Below are positions 12,238-20,633 of a stretch of DNA of 64,000 nt, in pieces. Origin of the DNA: Pelagibacteraceae bacterium AG-470-E16. Lineage in GTDB: Bacteria > Pseudomonadota > Alphaproteobacteria > Pelagibacterales > Pelagibacteraceae. How positions within the stretch are numbered: position 1 is the first letter of the stretch; each line of letters begins with the position of its first letter. Both the position numbers and the translations under genes were made by a program. The stretch is from assembly GCA_003209195.1 (NCBI GenBank), contig QCSF01000001.1, positions 1 through 64,000 on the forward strand, written 5' to 3'. Below the pieces are notes generated by a model. The model was not told the DNA's origin, did no database searches, and saw only the letters and a program-made list of their open reading frames with translations.

Positions 12238-14226
12238 ATGGCAATTAAAAAATTAATCCCAAATAATGATATTTCAGTAAAAGGGTGTTGTAAATTACCA
12301 TCAGATAAGAGTCTTTCCATAAGAGCCATTTTATTTTCAAGTATATCATATGGAATATCAAAAATTAAAATTAACAATCCTGGTGAGGATGTTATTTCAT
12401 CAATTATTGCGATCAAAAAACTTGGAATTAAAGTTGAAAAAAAAGGTGATTATTACTTAATATATGGCCTAGGGATTGGGTATCCCATCAATAAAAAAAA
12501 GCTAACTATAGATTGTAGAAATAGCGGAACAACCCTAAGATTGATTACGCCACTTATCGCAGGCTCTAAAATTAATGCAAAAATAATTGGTGACCAAAGT
12601 TTATCGAGCAGACCTTATAGACTTCAATTTCTAAGAAGTTTTTTAATGAATGTTAAACCTACAAATAAACAATATTTGCCCTTAGAAATTAAAGGCCACT
12701 CTAATTGTATACAAGCGAATATTAAAATTTCAAAACCCTCTGCACAAATGGTAAGTGCAGCAACTTTAGCAGGTATTTCAAGTTTTGGTGAAACGACGAT
12801 AGAGTGTCAAAATAATTTAAGAGATCACACAACTAGATTGTTAAAATATTTAGGATACCCAATTAAAGTTAAAAATAAAAAGTATAATCAAAAAATTATA
12901 TTACTTGGAAAGCAATTTTTGGCACCTTTGGTGAATTTTGATATACCTTCTGATCCATCTTCAAGTGCATTTTTAATTTCGATTTCTGTTTTAACAATTG
13001 GAAGCCAAATAAAAATACAAAATGTTTGTCTCAATGAGTTTAGGATTGGATATATTAGAGTTTTAAAAAAAATGGGGGCCAATATTAAATTTCAAAACAA
13101 AAGAAAGTATTTTGGAGAAATAGTAGGTGACATTATTGCTAGCTACTCACCAAATTTAAAAGGCATAATAATTAAACCACAAGAAATAGCCAGTATTATA
13201 GATGAAGTTCCAGTATTGTTAATAGTGTCTTTATTTTGTGAGTCAAAAAGTGTTTTTAACAATTTAACTGAACTTAAATTTAAAGAAACCAATAGATTAA
13301 AAGTAATGTATGAAAATTTAAAATTGATTGGAGCTAATATTGTAAGAAAAAAAGATAATTTAATTATTGACGGTCTTACAGAAAATTTTTATTCAAATGA
13401 TATCAAAATCATAAAAAATTTTAATAAAGATCATAGAATTGCTATGGCATTTTATGTTCTATCAGCAGTATCTAGAAAAAAATTACAGATTAATGATTTT
13501 GATTGTACAAATGTGTCATTTCCAAAATTTTTAAGCACTATCGACAATTTAAAAAATAATGATCAAAAAAAAATTATAATCGCTTGTGATGGGGGAGTAG
13601 CAAGCGGTAAAACAACTATACTAAAAAAAATTGTAAAATATTACTCTTCAAAGGCTGCTTTTATAGACTCAGGTTTACTTTATCGTTATTTAACATTTAA
13701 ACACATCGAAACTAGAAAAAAGAATATTGATTTAAAATATTTAATAAAAATTTTAGAAAATGTAAATTTAAAAAAATTACAAAATTTAAAATTACATTCT
13801 AATAATGTATCAAATAAAGTTTCCGAAATTGCAAAAATACCAATAATCAGAAAAAAACTACTACCGATTCAAAGAAAATTAATTTTTAGTTGCACTGAAT
13901 CTATTATACTTGTGGGCGGTCGTGATATTTGTTCAAAAATTCTACCCCTAGGCTTTAGCGATTTAAAAATATTCATTGAAGCAAAAGTTAAATTAAGAGC
14001 TAAAAGAAGATATCAAGAGCTAAAATTAATGAAAAATGAAAAAAATATCAGTTACAAACAAATTTTGAATGCCATAAAAGCTAGAGATTTAGCGGATAAA
14101 ACAAGAAAAGTAAGCCCACTAAAAAAAACTAAGGATTCTATATTGATACGTAATGACTCTAATGGTATATCGCGCGCACTTAAAAAAATACTTTTTTTAA
14201 TAGAAAGAGAGATTAAAAAATATTAG
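12238..14226 (+). CDS. aroA-cmk: Fused EPSP synthase - cytidylate kinase
   Basis: A single 662-residue ORF joins two enzymes normally encoded by adjacent genes. Residues about 1-440 are 3-phosphoshikimate 1-carboxyvinyltransferase (DKSLSIRA, NSGTTLR, LRDHTTRLL, DPSSSAF, KETNRLKVM, DHRIAMAF), the sixth shikimate-pathway step. From about residue 448 cytidylate kinase begins with P-loop DGGVASGKTT, then DSGLLYR, GGRDIC, RAKRRYQEL and ARDLADKTRKVSPL; it phosphorylates CMP/dCMP. No internal stop or start separates them and there is essentially no linker. Several usual residues differ: His in DKSxSHRA is Ile, and the CMK DGRDIG reads GGRDIC. The stop overlaps the rpsA GTG (TAGTG). Confidence 0.88.
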   Translation: MAIKKLIPNNDISVKGCCKLPSDKSLSIRAILFSSISYGISKIKINNPGEDVISSIIAIKKLGIKVEKKGDYYLIYGLGIGYPINKKKLTIDCRNSGTTLRLITPLIAGSKINAKIIGDQSLSSRPYRLQFLRSFLMNVKPTNKQYLPLEIKGHSNCIQANIKISKPSAQMVSAATLAGISSFGETTIECQNNLRDHTTRLLKYLGYPIKVKNKKYNQKIILLGKQFLAPLVNFDIPSDPSSSAFLISISVLTIGSQIKIQNVCLNEFRIGYIRVLKKMGANIKFQNKRKYFGEIVGDIIASYSPNLKGIIIKPQEIASIIDEVPVLLIVSLFCESKSVFNNLTELKFKETNRLKVMYENLKLIGANIVRKKDNLIIDGLTENFYSNDIKIIKNFNKDHRIAMAFYVLSAVSRKKLQINDFDCTNVSFPKFLSTIDNLKNNDQKKIIIACDGGVASGKTTILKKIVKYYSSKAAFIDSGLLYRYLTFKHIETRKKNIDLKYLIKILENVNLKKLQNLKLHSNNVSNKVSEIAKIPIIRKKLLPIQRKLIFSCTESIILVGGRDICSKILPLGFSDLKIFIEAKVKLRAKRRYQELKLMKNEKNISYKQILNAIKARDLADKTRKVSPLKKTKDSILIRNDSNGISRALKKILFLIEREIKKY

Positions 14227-15996: not shown

Positions 15997-16305
15997 ATGT
16001 CTAAAAAAAGTTATGTTAAATCAAATTTAATAAGAGATCTTCAGTATCATTTTCAAGAAATTCCAAACAATGATATTGAGCGAATTGTTGATATAATTTT
16101 TAAATACTTATCTAATTCTCTGACTTTTAAAAAAAATATTGAAATAAGAGGGCTTGGAACTTTTAAAGTAAAAAAAATGCCTCCCCGTAATGCCAGAAAT
16201 CCTAGAACAGGTCAGAATATAAAAATTGAAGAGAAAAATAAAATAAAGTGGAAAAGCTCAAAATTACTTAATTCTCGTATAAATAAGGATAAAAGTGTTG
16301 AATAA
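15997..16305 (+). CDS. ihfB: Integration host factor beta subunit
   Basis: 102-residue DNA-bending protein of the HU/IHF family. The helical N-terminus (KSNLIRDLQYHF) is followed by the beta-arm motif GLGTFKVKKMPPRNARNPRTG, with the conserved RNPRTG turn that intercalates in the minor groove. Assignment to the beta subunit rests on its position after rpsA; the sequence alone says HU/IHF. It overlaps pyrF by 11 bases. Confidence 0.85.
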   Translation: MSKKSYVKSNLIRDLQYHFQEIPNNDIERIVDIIFKYLSNSLTFKKNIEIRGLGTFKVKKMPPRNARNPRTGQNIKIEEKNKIKWKSSKLLNSRINKDKSVE

Positions 16306-16984
16306 AAAAATTATATTTATTGCACTTGATTGCTCGATATCAAAAGCAAATTTGATAATTAGATCTATACCGAAATATGAGTCAAAAAATTACACGTTTG
16401 GTTTAAAAATAGGTTATCAAATTTTTTTTTCTCGTGGTGGTAGAGAATTTGTTAAATCAATTAAAAATTTTCCAATTTTTTTAGATTTAAAATTAAATGA
16501 TATAGAAACTACTACTAAAAATGCATTAATATCCCTCAAAGATTTAAAAAATATAAAATATATTACTATCCATGTAAATACTGGTAAAAAAACAATAAAA
16601 AGTGCAAGAAACTTTACAAATGCAAAATTACTTTGTGTAACTACTCTAACTACTTTAGATCAAAAAGATATTAAAGAAATTGGATATAACAAAAAGATTG
16701 ATAATCTTATTTTGCATCAGGCTAACCTCGCTAAACAATGTGGATGCTATGCGGTGATATGCAGTGCTAGAGAATCTTTAAAAATAAATAATTTAGTAAA
16801 AATAAAAACTATCACACCAGGTATAAGGCTTTTAGGTGATAAGATTAATGACCAAAAAAGAATATCTACACCTAGAAATGCTTTGACCAAACAAAAAGCG
16901 TCTGGAATAGTAATTGGTAGAAGTTTAACGTCAGGAAATATAAAAAATAATTTTAAAAAACTTATTCAACATTTAGAGTTATGA
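16295..16984 (+). CDS. pyrF: Orotidine 5'-phosphate decarboxylase
   Basis: Last step of UMP synthesis. The catalytic D-x-K-x-x-D array is visible as DLKLNDIETT; the family usually has DLKFHDIPNT. TPGIRLLGD (usually TPGIRP) and the phosphate-binding end GIVIGRSLT are also present. At 229 residues it is normal length. The start is a GTG within the end of ihfB. The stop overlaps trpF (ATGA). Confidence 0.85.
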   Translation: MLNKKIIFIALDCSISKANLIIRSIPKYESKNYTFGLKIGYQIFFSRGGREFVKSIKNFPIFLDLKLNDIETTTKNALISLKDLKNIKYITIHVNTGKKTIKSARNFTNAKLLCVTTLTTLDQKDIKEIGYNKKIDNLILHQANLAKQCGCYAVICSARESLKINNLVKIKTITPGIRLLGDKINDQKRISTPRNALTKQKASGIVIGRSLTSGNIKNNFKKLIQHLEL

Positions 16985-17598
16985 GTCTTCCAACAATTAA
17001 AGTTTGTGGAAATAAGAACGCTAGCATTATTCAACTTTGTATCAATCTCGGTGCCACTTTAATTGGTTTCGTTATAAATTACCCTAAAAGTCCTAGGTCA
17101 ATTTCAACGTATAAACTTAAAATATTAGTAAAAAATATTCCAAAACATATAAAAAAGGTTGCAGTGATGGTAAATCCAACAATTGAGGAAGTAAAAGAAA
17201 TATCGAACTACTGTAATGTAATTCAATTACATGGAAACGAAAGTAATAAGTTTATTAAACTAATTAAAAAAGAAACTAATCTATTGATAATAAAGGTTAT
17301 AAAAGTAAAAATAAAAGAAGATCTCGAAGGTATTGATTGTTTTCCTGCTTCTGATGAAATTTTACTTGATACACCTTCAATGGGACAGTCAGGTAAAGCA
17401 TTTAATTTTAATCTTTTAAATGAGATCAAAAATAAAAAATTTTTTCTTGCTGGGAAAATTGATATTAATAATGTCAAAACAGCGCTTAAATACACTGATA
17501 AAATCGACGTAAATTCTGGTTTGGAAACTGAAAAGGGTATAAAAGACAGCGACAAAATTAAAGAATTTTTCAACAGGTTAAAAAATGATAAAAGTTAA
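16981..17598 (+). CDS. trpF: Phosphoribosylanthranilate isomerase
   Basis: (beta/alpha)8 enzyme of tryptophan synthesis that isomerises phosphoribosylanthranilate. The catalytic Cys lies in KVCGN and the catalytic Asp in ILLDTPSMGQSG. Other landmarks are YPKSPRSIS, IQLHGNES and DVNSGLETEKGIKD. The phosphate-site motif that usually reads LAGG is LAGK here. At 205 residues it is full length. It is coupled at both ends: ATGA with pyrF and a 14-base overlap with trpB. No trpC, trpD or trpE lies in this window. Confidence 0.85.
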   Translation: MSLPTIKVCGNKNASIIQLCINLGATLIGFVINYPKSPRSISTYKLKILVKNIPKHIKKVAVMVNPTIEEVKEISNYCNVIQLHGNESNKFIKLIKKETNLLIIKVIKVKIKEDLEGIDCFPASDEILLDTPSMGQSGKAFNFNLLNEIKNKKFFLAGKIDINNVKTALKYTDKIDVNSGLETEKGIKDSDKIKEFFNRLKNDKS

Positions 17599-18820
17599 AA
17601 AAGGTACTCCTCTAATAGATCAACATGATAAAAACTATATGTATAATGGAAAATTTGGTGGCAATTTTATTCCTGAAACCTTAAAAAAACCTGTAGAGGA
17701 TCTAACAATACTTTTTGAAAAACTTAGAAAAGACAAACAATTTTTAAAACAAAGAGATCATTATTTCAAAAATTACGTCGGTACTCCAACTTCTTTTGTA
17801 AAATTGAAAAATCTTACTAATTATTTGGGTGGAGCTCAAATTTGGGCAAAAGTAGTTTCAGAAGCAAATGGTGGAGCCCACAAAATTTATAATGCTACAG
17901 TCCATGCCTTAATATGTAAAAAAGCAGGAAAAAAGTTTATTGTTGGGGATACTGGTGCAGGTTATGCTGGTAAAATGTTATCAATGGCAGCCAAAAAATT
18001 TGGTTTAAAATGTAAAATTTTTATGGGCGCAAAAGATATAGAGAGACAAAGACCTAACTGTGAAGCTATCAAAAATAATGGAGCGGAAATCGTACCTGTC
18101 TACACTGGTAGCAAAACTCTAGTTGATGCGGTAAGTGAATGTATGAGGTATTGGGTATCAAATTGCGATACTACTCATATGTGTGTAGGTTCAACGGTTG
18201 GGCCAAACATATTTATAAAAATTTGTGCTTGGAGCACAGCTCAAATTTCAAGAGAGCTAATTATTCAAATAAAAAAAAAATTTGGAGAGATTCCAAAAAA
18301 AATTAAGCTAATTAATTGTGTTGGAGGTGGTAGTTCAGCCCTAGGATTCTGGAATTCTTTTATAGACTACGATAAAAATCAAGTTGAGCTAATCGGGGTT
18401 GAGGCTGGTGGACCAAAAAATAGTAAACTACATGCCGCTCCACTAAGTACTAATGCAAAGGTTGGAATTTTACATGGTGCCGCACAATATGTGATACAAG
18501 ATAAAGAAGGTCAAATAAGTAATACTGAGAGTATAAGTGCTGGACTTGATTATCCTGGTATATCCCCAATACATTGTTTTTTAAAAGATATAAAAAGAGC
18601 AAAGTACACCAGCGCCACTGATGAAGAGGCTTTAGAGGCTCATCAATTAGTAACTAATTTTGAAAAAATTTCGCCATCTCTTGAACCATCTCATGCATTT
18701 GCAGAGGCAATTAAAATTGCACCAAAATTAAACAAAGAAACAATAATTGTAGTCAATAGTTGCGGTGATGCAAAAAAAGATAGGGATATATTAAAAAAAA
18801 GATTAGGAAAAAAAATTTGA
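17585..18820 (+). CDS. trpB: Tryptophan synthase beta chain homologue with altered active site
   Basis: PLP enzyme of the TrpB fold that canonically joins indole and serine. The Schiff-base Lys is K100 in GGAHKIYN, the phosphate loop is VGGGSSALG, and GLDYPG and the TDEEALEA glutamate are kept. The loop that is nearly always AETGAGQHG reads GDTGAGYAG: the indole-activating Glu is Asp122, and the following Gln-His pair is Tyr127-Ala128. LNHTGAHK reads EANGGAHK, VGPHPFP reads VGPNIFI, and the C-terminal SGRGD region reads SCGDA. These changes cluster at the substrate site while the fold is intact. It is in the standard trpF-trpB-trpA position, so it may be the real TrpB of a divergent lineage or a changed enzyme. 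Confidence 0.8.
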   Translation: MIKVKKGTPLIDQHDKNYMYNGKFGGNFIPETLKKPVEDLTILFEKLRKDKQFLKQRDHYFKNYVGTPTSFVKLKNLTNYLGGAQIWAKVVSEANGGAHKIYNATVHALICKKAGKKFIVGDTGAGYAGKMLSMAAKKFGLKCKIFMGAKDIERQRPNCEAIKNNGAEIVPVYTGSKTLVDAVSECMRYWVSNCDTTHMCVGSTVGPNIFIKICAWSTAQISRELIIQIKKKFGEIPKKIKLINCVGGGSSALGFWNSFIDYDKNQVELIGVEAGGPKNSKLHAAPLSTNAKVGILHGAAQYVIQDKEGQISNTESISAGLDYPGISPIHCFLKDIKRAKYTSATDEEALEAHQLVTNFEKISPSLEPSHAFAEAIKIAPKLNKETIIVVNSCGDAKKDRDILKKRLGKKI

Positions 18821-18821
18821 A

Positions 18822-19631
18822 ATGAATTTAATTAAAAAAGTTTTTATAAAGTGTAAAAAAGAAAAAAGACCTGCTCTTTTAACTTTTACAGTTGCTGGGG
18901 ATAATACTCATAAAAATTCATTAAAAATTCTAAAATCTATTTCTCCATATGTTGATATATGTGAACTCGGTATGCCACATAATACACCTGTTGCTGACGG
19001 AGGCCAAATTCAAAATTGTTCACACCGAGCTTTAAAAAATGGCATTAGAACAAAAGATATTTTTAAAATTGTAAAACAATATAAAAAATTTAAATGCTCT
19101 CGACCTGTTATATTAATGGGTTATTTTAATACAGTTAAACAATTTGGTGAAAATAATTTTATTAATGAATGTAAAAAAAATAAAGTCGACGGAGTTATTA
19201 TAGTAGATTTACCTTGGCCGGAAAATAGAGATTTAGCAAAAAGATGTAAAAAGAAATCAATTAACTTTATTCAATTAGTTGCTCCGACGACTTCTAATTA
19301 TAGATTAAGAAAAATTGTGAATGATTCACATGATATGATTTATTATATAAGTATGTTGTCTACAACCGGTGGAGAGCTAAAGGTATCGCCAGAAAAAATA
19401 ATTAAGAATTACCAAAAAATTAAAAAATTAAGCAAAAATAAAAATGTTGTAATAGGTTTTGGTATTACAGATAAAACTATATCATCACTCAAAAAAGCTT
19501 GTGGTCTTGTAGTTGGAAGTTTGGTGTGTCGATCAATCACAGATTCGTTAAATAGAGGAAATGATCCCTCTGTGGCGGTTCAAAATGTTGTTAAAAAGCT
19601 AAAATCTCAAATAATTCAGCAAAATCAGTGA
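18822..19631 (+). CDS. trpA: Tryptophan synthase alpha chain homologue
   Basis: (beta/alpha)8 enzyme that cleaves indole-3-glycerol phosphate and normally docks on TrpB. The catalytic pair is present: Glu48 in CELG and Asp59 in VADGG. The phosphate site (STTGGEL, GFGIT, VVGSLV) is recognisable. The loop connecting the catalytic residues, usually ELGIPFSDPxADGP, reads ELGMPHNTPVADGG, so the substrate-facing residues differ while the acids remain. It starts one base after trpB. At 269 residues it is normal length. Confidence 0.82.
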   Translation: MNLIKKVFIKCKKEKRPALLTFTVAGDNTHKNSLKILKSISPYVDICELGMPHNTPVADGGQIQNCSHRALKNGIRTKDIFKIVKQYKKFKCSRPVILMGYFNTVKQFGENNFINECKKNKVDGVIIVDLPWPENRDLAKRCKKKSINFIQLVAPTTSNYRLRKIVNDSHDMIYYISMLSTTGGELKVSPEKIIKNYQKIKKLSKNKNVVIGFGITDKTISSLKKACGLVVGSLVCRSITDSLNRGNDPSVAVQNVVKKLKSQIIQQNQ

Positions 19632-19688: not shown

Positions 19689-20633
19689 ATGACTAACTGG
19701 TTAGAAAAAATTTTATCAAAAGCAAAAGAGGCAGGTGCTAAGTTATCTAACTCTTTTAAAAAGACTACCATCAAAAATGCAAGTCTTTGGAGTTCATGCC
19801 CTGATTGTAAAAAAATGTTTTTAGGTAAGGATTTAGAAACAAATTTATACGTCTGTACACAGTGTGATTATCATTTCAGAATAAGTGCTGAAAATAGATT
19901 TAAAATTTTCTTTGATAATTCACAATATAACATGATACCGACCAAAAAATTAATTGATGATCCGAATCAATTTAAAACTGAATTAAAAGTTTACAAAGAT
20001 CAGCTAAAATCTGCAAAGAAAAAAACAAATCAAAACGCATCTTTAGTTTCAGCGAACGGAAAAGTGAATGGACTAGATATGGTTTGCTCATCTTTTGATT
20101 TCAATTTTAATGGTGGAACACTAAGCTTACAATCTGGTCAAAACTTTTATGAAGCATGCGAATATGCCGTAAAAAACAAAGTATCAGCTTTAACAGTTTT
20201 TATAACCACCGGTGGTGCGGCGCTCCAAGAAAATTTGTTTGCGCTTTATCAAATGCCAAAAACTATTCTTGGCGTGCAGATGTTAAAAAAAAATAAAATA
20301 CCTTACTTTGTAGTTGCAAACGTGAATATTGGCGGGGTAAGTGCAAGCTTTGGATCATTGGGTGATTTTCATATTATGGAACCTGGGAAAAAAACAATAT
20401 GGGGATTCGCTGGAAAAAAAATTATACAAGGTACAATCTCAGAACAACTGCCTGAAGATTTTCAATCAGCTTCACACGTTTTAACAACTGGAGCAATTGA
20501 CATGGTTACTCATCGCAAAGACCAAAAAAAAGTTATTTCAAATTTAGTTTCCATACTTCTGAAAAAAGAAAAATCTCAACAGCTGTATAGCGATTATGAT
20601 GATATAAAAGTGTCACAAATTGTAAATCAGTAG
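19689..20633 (+). CDS. accD: Acetyl-CoA carboxylase carboxyltransferase beta subunit
   Basis: Subunit of the biotin-dependent enzyme making malonyl-CoA. The N-terminal zinc finger CPDC...CTQC is intact, followed by the crotonase-like domain with GGVSASFGSLGD and TISEQLPEDFQ. The usual SGGARMQEG segment reads TGGAALQEN. Length (314) is normal. A 57-base spacer separates it from trpA, so it may have its own promoter. The position before folC is standard for Alphaproteobacteria. Confidence 0.88.
   Translation: MTNWLEKILSKAKEAGAKLSNSFKKTTIKNASLWSSCPDCKKMFLGKDLETNLYVCTQCDYHFRISAENRFKIFFDNSQYNMIPTKKLIDDPNQFKTELKVYKDQLKSAKKKTNQNASLVSANGKVNGLDMVCSSFDFNFNGGTLSLQSGQNFYEACEYAVKNKVSALTVFITTGGAALQENLFALYQMPKTILGVQMLKKNKIPYFVVANVNIGGVSASFGSLGDFHIMEPGKKTIWGFAGKKIIQGTISEQLPEDFQSASHVLTTGAIDMVTHRKDQKKVISNLVSILLKKEKSQQLYSDYDDIKVSQIVNQ

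Follow-up and report, generated by a model that had tools for sequence, protein, structure and literature searches.

The tryptophan synthase genes on contig QCSF01000001.1 encode a beta subunit (TrpB) and an alpha subunit (TrpA) with altered active-site loops, and the question is whether this pair still makes tryptophan. The preliminary description of the locus offered two readings, a fast-evolving but working synthase or a pair moved to a different phospho-substrate/serine reaction. The nearest relatives of the window (the whole stretch of DNA analysed, positions 1 to 64,000 of the contig) are Pelagibacteraceae (SAR11, HIMB114 clade); the isolate HIMB114 (L111) belongs to the same genus, with a TrpB identity of 90%. 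The trpFBA order claimed for the locus holds: trpF (phosphoribosylanthranilate isomerase, 16981..17598; PF00697 123.8 bits, PRK01222 NCBIfam models at most 145.5 bits, below their cut-offs), trpB (17585..18820, 411 aa) and trpA (18822..19631, 269 aa) adjoin on the + strand in an ordinary operon place. On the same strand, pyrF lies upstream (16295..16984; TIGR01740 110.9 bits, exceeding the cut-off of 92.3) and accD downstream (19689..20633), outside the exchanged trpBA unit discussed below, as judged from gene order and per-gene identities. Elsewhere in the window, aroA and cmk form a single fused ORF of 662 aa (12238-14226); this fusion is common to the window genus, L254 (g12) and L256 (g8), and the genes are separate in other SAR11 loci.

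In profile searches, the window TrpB scored 390.1 bits against TIGR00263, just under the curated cut-off of 392.45, compared to approximately 620-660 bits for canonical alphaproteobacterial TrpBs among the matches listed. Its score against the TrpB2 model TIGR01415 was 93.6 bits, far below the cut-off of 518.85. TrpA exceeded the TIGR00262 cut-off (183.6 bits vs. 102.35) and scored 204.7 bits against PF00290. An AlphaFold model of TrpB was obtained from a 26-sequence alignment (pTM 0.73), and the best 50 PDB matches listed for it were all TrpB (top match 5dvz, TM 0.77/0.82). The model was used for fold identity and not for pocket geometry, because its mean pLDDT was 69 and residues 279-336 were below pLDDT 50; as a prediction, it confirms the TrpB fold only.

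Residues were numbered via the Pyrococcus furiosus TrpB sequence and are given with Salmonella equivalents, using an offset between the two numberings that we assume to be correct. In the window TrpB (all coordinates on the + strand), the PLP lysine is kept (Lys100, Salmonella Lys87; GGAHK, 17870..17884) and the loop before it reads ANGGAHK instead of LNHTGAHK. The substrate carboxylate/indole loop reads GDTGAGYAGK (17945..17974), lacking the catalytic Glu109 and Gln114-His115, which are replaced by Asp122, Tyr127 and Ala128. The preliminary description had named Lys100 and these three residues correctly in protein numbering, and had called the loop nearly always AETGAGQHG; Glu109, Gln114 and His115 were indeed present in 30/30 canonical alphaproteobacteria sampled. 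Two further loop changes that it claimed, at LNHTGAHK and VGPHPFP, were also found, the second as GPNIF for GPHPF (18200..18214; Pro194 kept as Pro207, His195 replaced by Asn208 and Pro196 by Ile209). In the SGRGD region, where NSCGDAKKD (18755..18781) replaces N-L/M-C/S-GRGDKD, the claimed change stood in part: the replacements of Arg379 (Asp395), Gly380 (Ala) and Asp381 (Lys) are special, but Cys for Ser377 (the pyridine-N position) was rejected as a SAR11 novelty, being present in 23 of the 30 canonical alphaproteobacteria. Changes beyond the earlier account are Ala161 for Arg148 (18065..18067; the closed-state hydrogen-bond partner of Gln114, PMC9512447), Val180 for Lys167 (18122..18124; the COMM-domain lysine contacting alpha Asp56, PMC6608616), Ser251 for Asn236 (18335..18337, beside the PLP phosphate loop GGGS) and Thr for Asp56 in TrpA. 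The PLP lysine, the phosphate loop and the fold are retained, as had been stated: Lys100 and GGGS were kept in every record, except for an undetermined base at the lysine in the draft L034.

The rebuilt TrpB is common across SAR11 and is no single-genome oddity. We compared 127 SAR11 TrpB records (some genomes are included twice) with 30 canonical TrpBs taken from the class Alphaproteobacteria, to which the SAR11 proteins are approximately 40% identical; five Met-class and canonical-type records (L032-L036) were kept apart from this count, and the Met classes were tabulated separately. The replaced positions differed in 127/127 SAR11 records, while the residues were invariant in the other alphaproteobacteria (30/30). 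The replacements were Glu109 to Asp, Gln114 to Tyr, His115 to Ala/Asn, Arg148 to Ala/Ser, Lys167 to Val, His195 to Asn/Thr/Ala, Asn236 to Ser and Arg379 to Asp (one Glu). SAR11 TrpB keeps Arg175 and Ser235 and, like canonical TrpB1 (Salmonella, P. furiosus 5dvz), the fold, PLP Lys87, His86, Thr110-Gly113, Arg141, Asn145, Asp305, Glu350, Lys382, the GGGS loop and a trpA partner; it is unlike canonical TrpB1 in having Asp at 109 and Tyr or Met at 114, and in the replacement of Arg148 (in most), Lys167, His195-Pro196, Asn236 and Arg379. Outside the order, the Tyr-type motif was not found among about 380 genomes sampled from the class and 298 from the phylum.

Several allele classes of SAR11 tryptophan synthase exist. 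Residue 114 is Tyr in the common class, which includes the window, and Met in the others; residues 115, 148 and alpha56 change along with it. The second motif, DTGAGM-x-G, was present in 24/367 order genomes (genera g1, g4 and g5 of family f1, and genus g15 of family f2), and canonical ETGAGQH in 3/367 (f2 genera g16 and g419). Across classes, His115 is replaced by Ala, Asn, Phe or Gln and Lys167 by Val or Ile; Arg148 is kept in the basal Met class, and Asp109 is completely fixed in the Tyr and Met classes. In Salmonella, the betaGlu109Asp exchange reportedly lowers activity and alters specificity (Brzovic, 1992). Indole N1 pairs with the carboxylate of Glu109; the closed state has Gln114 hydrogen-bonded to Asn145 and to Arg148, and betaGln114Ala perturbs the beta reaction in Salmonella (PMC9512447). 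The effects of both exchanges count against a working SAR11 synthase.

TrpA of the window keeps Glu48 and Asp59 (the catalytic Glu49 and Asp60) and has an altered loop between them, as the preliminary description claimed and the window translation confirms: PHNTP stands for PFTDP/PFSDP (18963..18998, + strand), with Phe54 replaced by His53 and Asp56 by Thr55. Position 56 is Asp in 28/28 canonical TrpAs and Thr, Ala or Cys in SAR11, where Phe54 is mostly His and both catalytic acids are kept. In the Mycobacterium tuberculosis enzyme, the equivalent of alphaAsp56 contacts the COMM-domain lysine (beta Lys181) (PMC6608616). Both sides of this contact are gone in SAR11, the losses of betaLys167 and alphaAsp56 always coinciding, and Gln114 is likewise lost together with Arg148, which the basal Met-Ala class keeps. 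By contrast, the sister-family record L036 (G050) retains Lys167, has an acidic residue (Glu) at alpha56 and has lost both Arg141 and Asp305, the salt bridge being replaced by Leu and Asn; its TrpB keeps Glu109 and carries Gln114Ala and Gly116Leu. L036 is 50% identical in TrpB and 78% in accD to its congener L035, which has a canonical TrpB. In L033 (G043), TrpA has Glu at the position of catalytic Asp60 (IGEGDKIQ), alongside a Met-Ala TrpB.

Trees were calculated under LG+G4 without a mixture model, and L033 and L036 have long branches, so that their positions are uncertain. The variants all fall into a single clade of the TrpB tree (100/100), with a long stem of 0.91 changes per column. This stem agrees with the description of the enzyme as fast-evolving, but its present evolution is slow: in seven close pairs, which cover both Tyr and Met classes, trpB dN/dS was 0.013-0.041, and in each pair every other gene tested had a higher value. 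trpB is thus under strong purifying selection. The Met-Phe class unites g1 and g4 genomes in the TrpB tree (100/100) and again in the TrpA tree (100/96; stem 1.13), and in the TrpB tree the g4 genome L225 is nested within the g5 Met-Ala clade, with 93% identity. A single g1 clade was rejected by TrpB (p-AU 5e-55) and TrpA (p-AU 0.0175), in tests with groups set by genus code and done after the identity pattern had been seen. The rpsA and folC trees each recovered g1 (100/100) and f2 (100/100), with the Met-Phe class represented in the rpsA tree by genome L034 only.

Identity profiles along the locus outline the exchanged unit. L034 and L251, of the same genus, were 89, 82 and 90% identical in rpsA, accD and folC, but 68% in TrpB and 62% in TrpA, rising to 82% in the last 60 TrpA residues. 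L034 and the g4 genome L223 were 79% identical in TrpB and 64% in TrpA (trpF 30%, accD 40%, folC 30%); the g4 genome L225 and the g5 genome L240 were 94% identical in TrpB and 79% in TrpA (trpF 35%, accD 40%, folC 28%). The simplest reading of these comparisons is that trpB and most of trpA were replaced in place between genera, with breakpoints that are approximate. TrpA does not always accompany TrpB: the TrpA of L033 groups with its own family and its TrpB elsewhere, and the placement of L041 in the TrpA tree disagrees with that in the TrpB tree. Beside trpBA, accD and folC likewise differ strongly in allele type among members of one genus (accD in L225, L236, L241 and L243; folC in L244), the accDs of L241 and L243 being 90% alike and 29-38% identical to all others compared. 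As these neighbours diverge too, the trpBA region as a whole may be a hot spot of recombination. Two other candidates were rejected: an unusual conservation of TrpB in SAR11 (a recent sweep), as TrpB/TrpF identity ratios were broadly in the canonical range, and a phage or viral carrier, as one scan found no viral contig relative.

Epistatic drift might have produced the altered design. One permissive change on the stem would have freed otherwise invariant neighbours, with no benefit, and recombination would have shuffled the resulting alleles neutrally. The compensated pairs (Gln114/Arg148 and alphaAsp56/betaLys167) change together, SAR11 recombination is reported as promiscuous and genome-wide (PMC12374537), and divergent accD and folC alleles occur in the same region, all in favour of drift. 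Against it, dN/dS is low across all allele classes and Asp109 is fixed, so that present states are constrained; such constraint fits drift on the stem and is neutral as to benefit. We hold this account as tentative, with a somewhat less than even chance of being right; it is compatible with a working synthase, since it concerns cause and not function. That active-site designs have moved between SAR11 genera is shown by the comparisons above; that they form a circulating set of trpBA cassettes kept by selection is less probable, in our estimate. The circulating set would then comprise Tyr114, Met-Phe, Met-Ala and Met-Gln/Asn, with the canonical type in two sister-family genera, and selection might come, for example, from natural inhibitors, from indole/serine analogues, or from the tuning of serine use under dependence on external glycine/serine.

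Whether the enzyme works was judged from the genomes that carry it. The window genome (G000) is a draft (969 kb, 39 contigs, 76% complete) in which genome searches found one TrpB1 and one TrpA, and no second or canonical TrpB. Its trpB occupies the orthologous locus beside trpA. The trpE, trpD and trpC genes were not found in this draft but were present in nearly all relatives at least 90% complete (trpE 28/28, trpC 27/28, trpD 27/28). As the three genes are clustered within about 4 kb in relatives, a single assembly gap is likely to account for their absence. Every genome with a match had one TrpB1, except the draft G016 (8% contamination), which had two; among closed genomes, G005, G006 and G012 had one TrpB match each, and in G010, G023 and G031 the second match was weak, partial and to other enzymes (E 2e-5 to 3e-4). 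True TrpB2, of the same superfamily, was encoded separately (TIGR01415 over cut-off) in 4/61 relatives, L188-L191 (G013, G009, G034 and G045); three of these also keep the variant TrpB1, and G013 (83% complete) shows none.

The closed relative G031, which we take to be HTCC1062, carries GDTGAGYAG in its TrpB (L245). The AMS1 artificial seawater used to maintain HTCC1062 is supplemented only with pyruvate, glycine, methionine and five vitamins or precursors, and the strain thus grows without added tryptophan (PMC13198564). A sole-copy TrpB in relatives, the presence of trpE/D/C and this growth are the combination that the preliminary description had named as the sign of an ordinary, divergent synthase. 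The pair in the window is therefore predicted, with high confidence, to be functional and to serve a SAR11 bacterium as its sole tryptophan synthase (alpha2beta2), in a lineage-specific design, because TrpB1 is the only copy, relatives encode trpE/D/C, the operon place is ordinary, selection is purifying and HTCC1062 grows. Kagan et al. (2008) came to this view of the function of P. ubique trpB as well, placing the SAR11-like genes in a distinct, single-copy cluster within trpB_1 that must be functional (PMC2395257).

In such an enzyme, TrpA would still cleave indole-3-glycerol phosphate using Glu49 and Asp60, and indole would then reach TrpB, where PLP on Lys87 would form the aminoacrylate from serine. 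The substrate carboxylate would be held by the retained Thr-Gly-Ala-Gly backbone, and Asp109 would assume the role of Glu109 in stabilising the charge on indole N1. Gln114 and Arg148 would no longer be an interacting pair. Because the alphaAsp56-betaLys167 contact is gone, signalling between subunits would depend on other contacts, among them the Arg141-Asp305 pair, which is kept.

A working synthase might also accept other nucleophiles or beta-substituted amino acids, its altered loops having been selected for that purpose. The changed residues are those of the nucleophile and carboxylate sites, the allele classes differ exactly there, and an engineered TrpB has been turned into a tyrosine synthase (PDB 8egy), but the locus has no linked gene of a second pathway, and from the sequences at hand we consider such broadened specificity rather improbable. 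A pair moved to another phospho-substrate/serine reaction, with tryptophan imported or made elsewhere, is far less probable still: the replacement of catalytic Glu109 and of both substrate-carboxylate side chains would suit it, but TrpB1 is the sole copy and is kept alongside trpE, trpD, trpC and trpF, both TrpA catalytic acids remain, TrpB2 is confined to the few relatives named above, and HTCC1062 needs no added tryptophan (PMC13198564). That the locus reflects an error of assembly or annotation, or that the gene is decaying, is scarcely credible, since, although the window comes from a draft, closed genomes and those of isolates such as HIMB114 carry the same sequence type, the frames are intact and dN/dS is far below 1.

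That SAR11 trpB forms a distinct functional cluster is already known from Kagan et al. (2008) (PMC2395257). The window fits that cluster, defined by 64-87% identity to HTCC1062 TrpB (window 81% to G031, L017), and its gene order matches; the text seen gives a distance tree only, without active-site residues, TrpA covariation, allele classes or in-place exchange. In the literature searched, we found nothing on SAR11 TrpB active-site residues beyond that study, nor the additions made here: the residue-level rebuild, the paired contact losses, the allele classes and the inter-genus trpBA exchange. In the engineered tyrosine synthase TmTyrS1, the indole-pocket glutamate is presumably altered. TmTyrS1 (PDB 8egy), also a TrpB, is laboratory-made and has altered specificity, whereas the SAR11 change is natural, uses Asp and is fixed across almost the whole order.

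That trpBA has been exchanged in place between genera whose neighbouring proteins share about 30-40% identity is an unusual course for an enzyme of core biosynthesis. Tryptophan synthase serves as a textbook example of channelling and allostery, with Glu109, Gln114, Lys167 and alphaAsp56 discussed as key residues. SAR11, commonly estimated to outnumber all other groups of marine heterotrophic bacteria, replaces all four of these residues and appears to make tryptophan. With several natural, evolution-tested redesigns, the need for each contact becomes measurable, and these enzymes may offer new TrpB starting points toward non-canonical amino acids.
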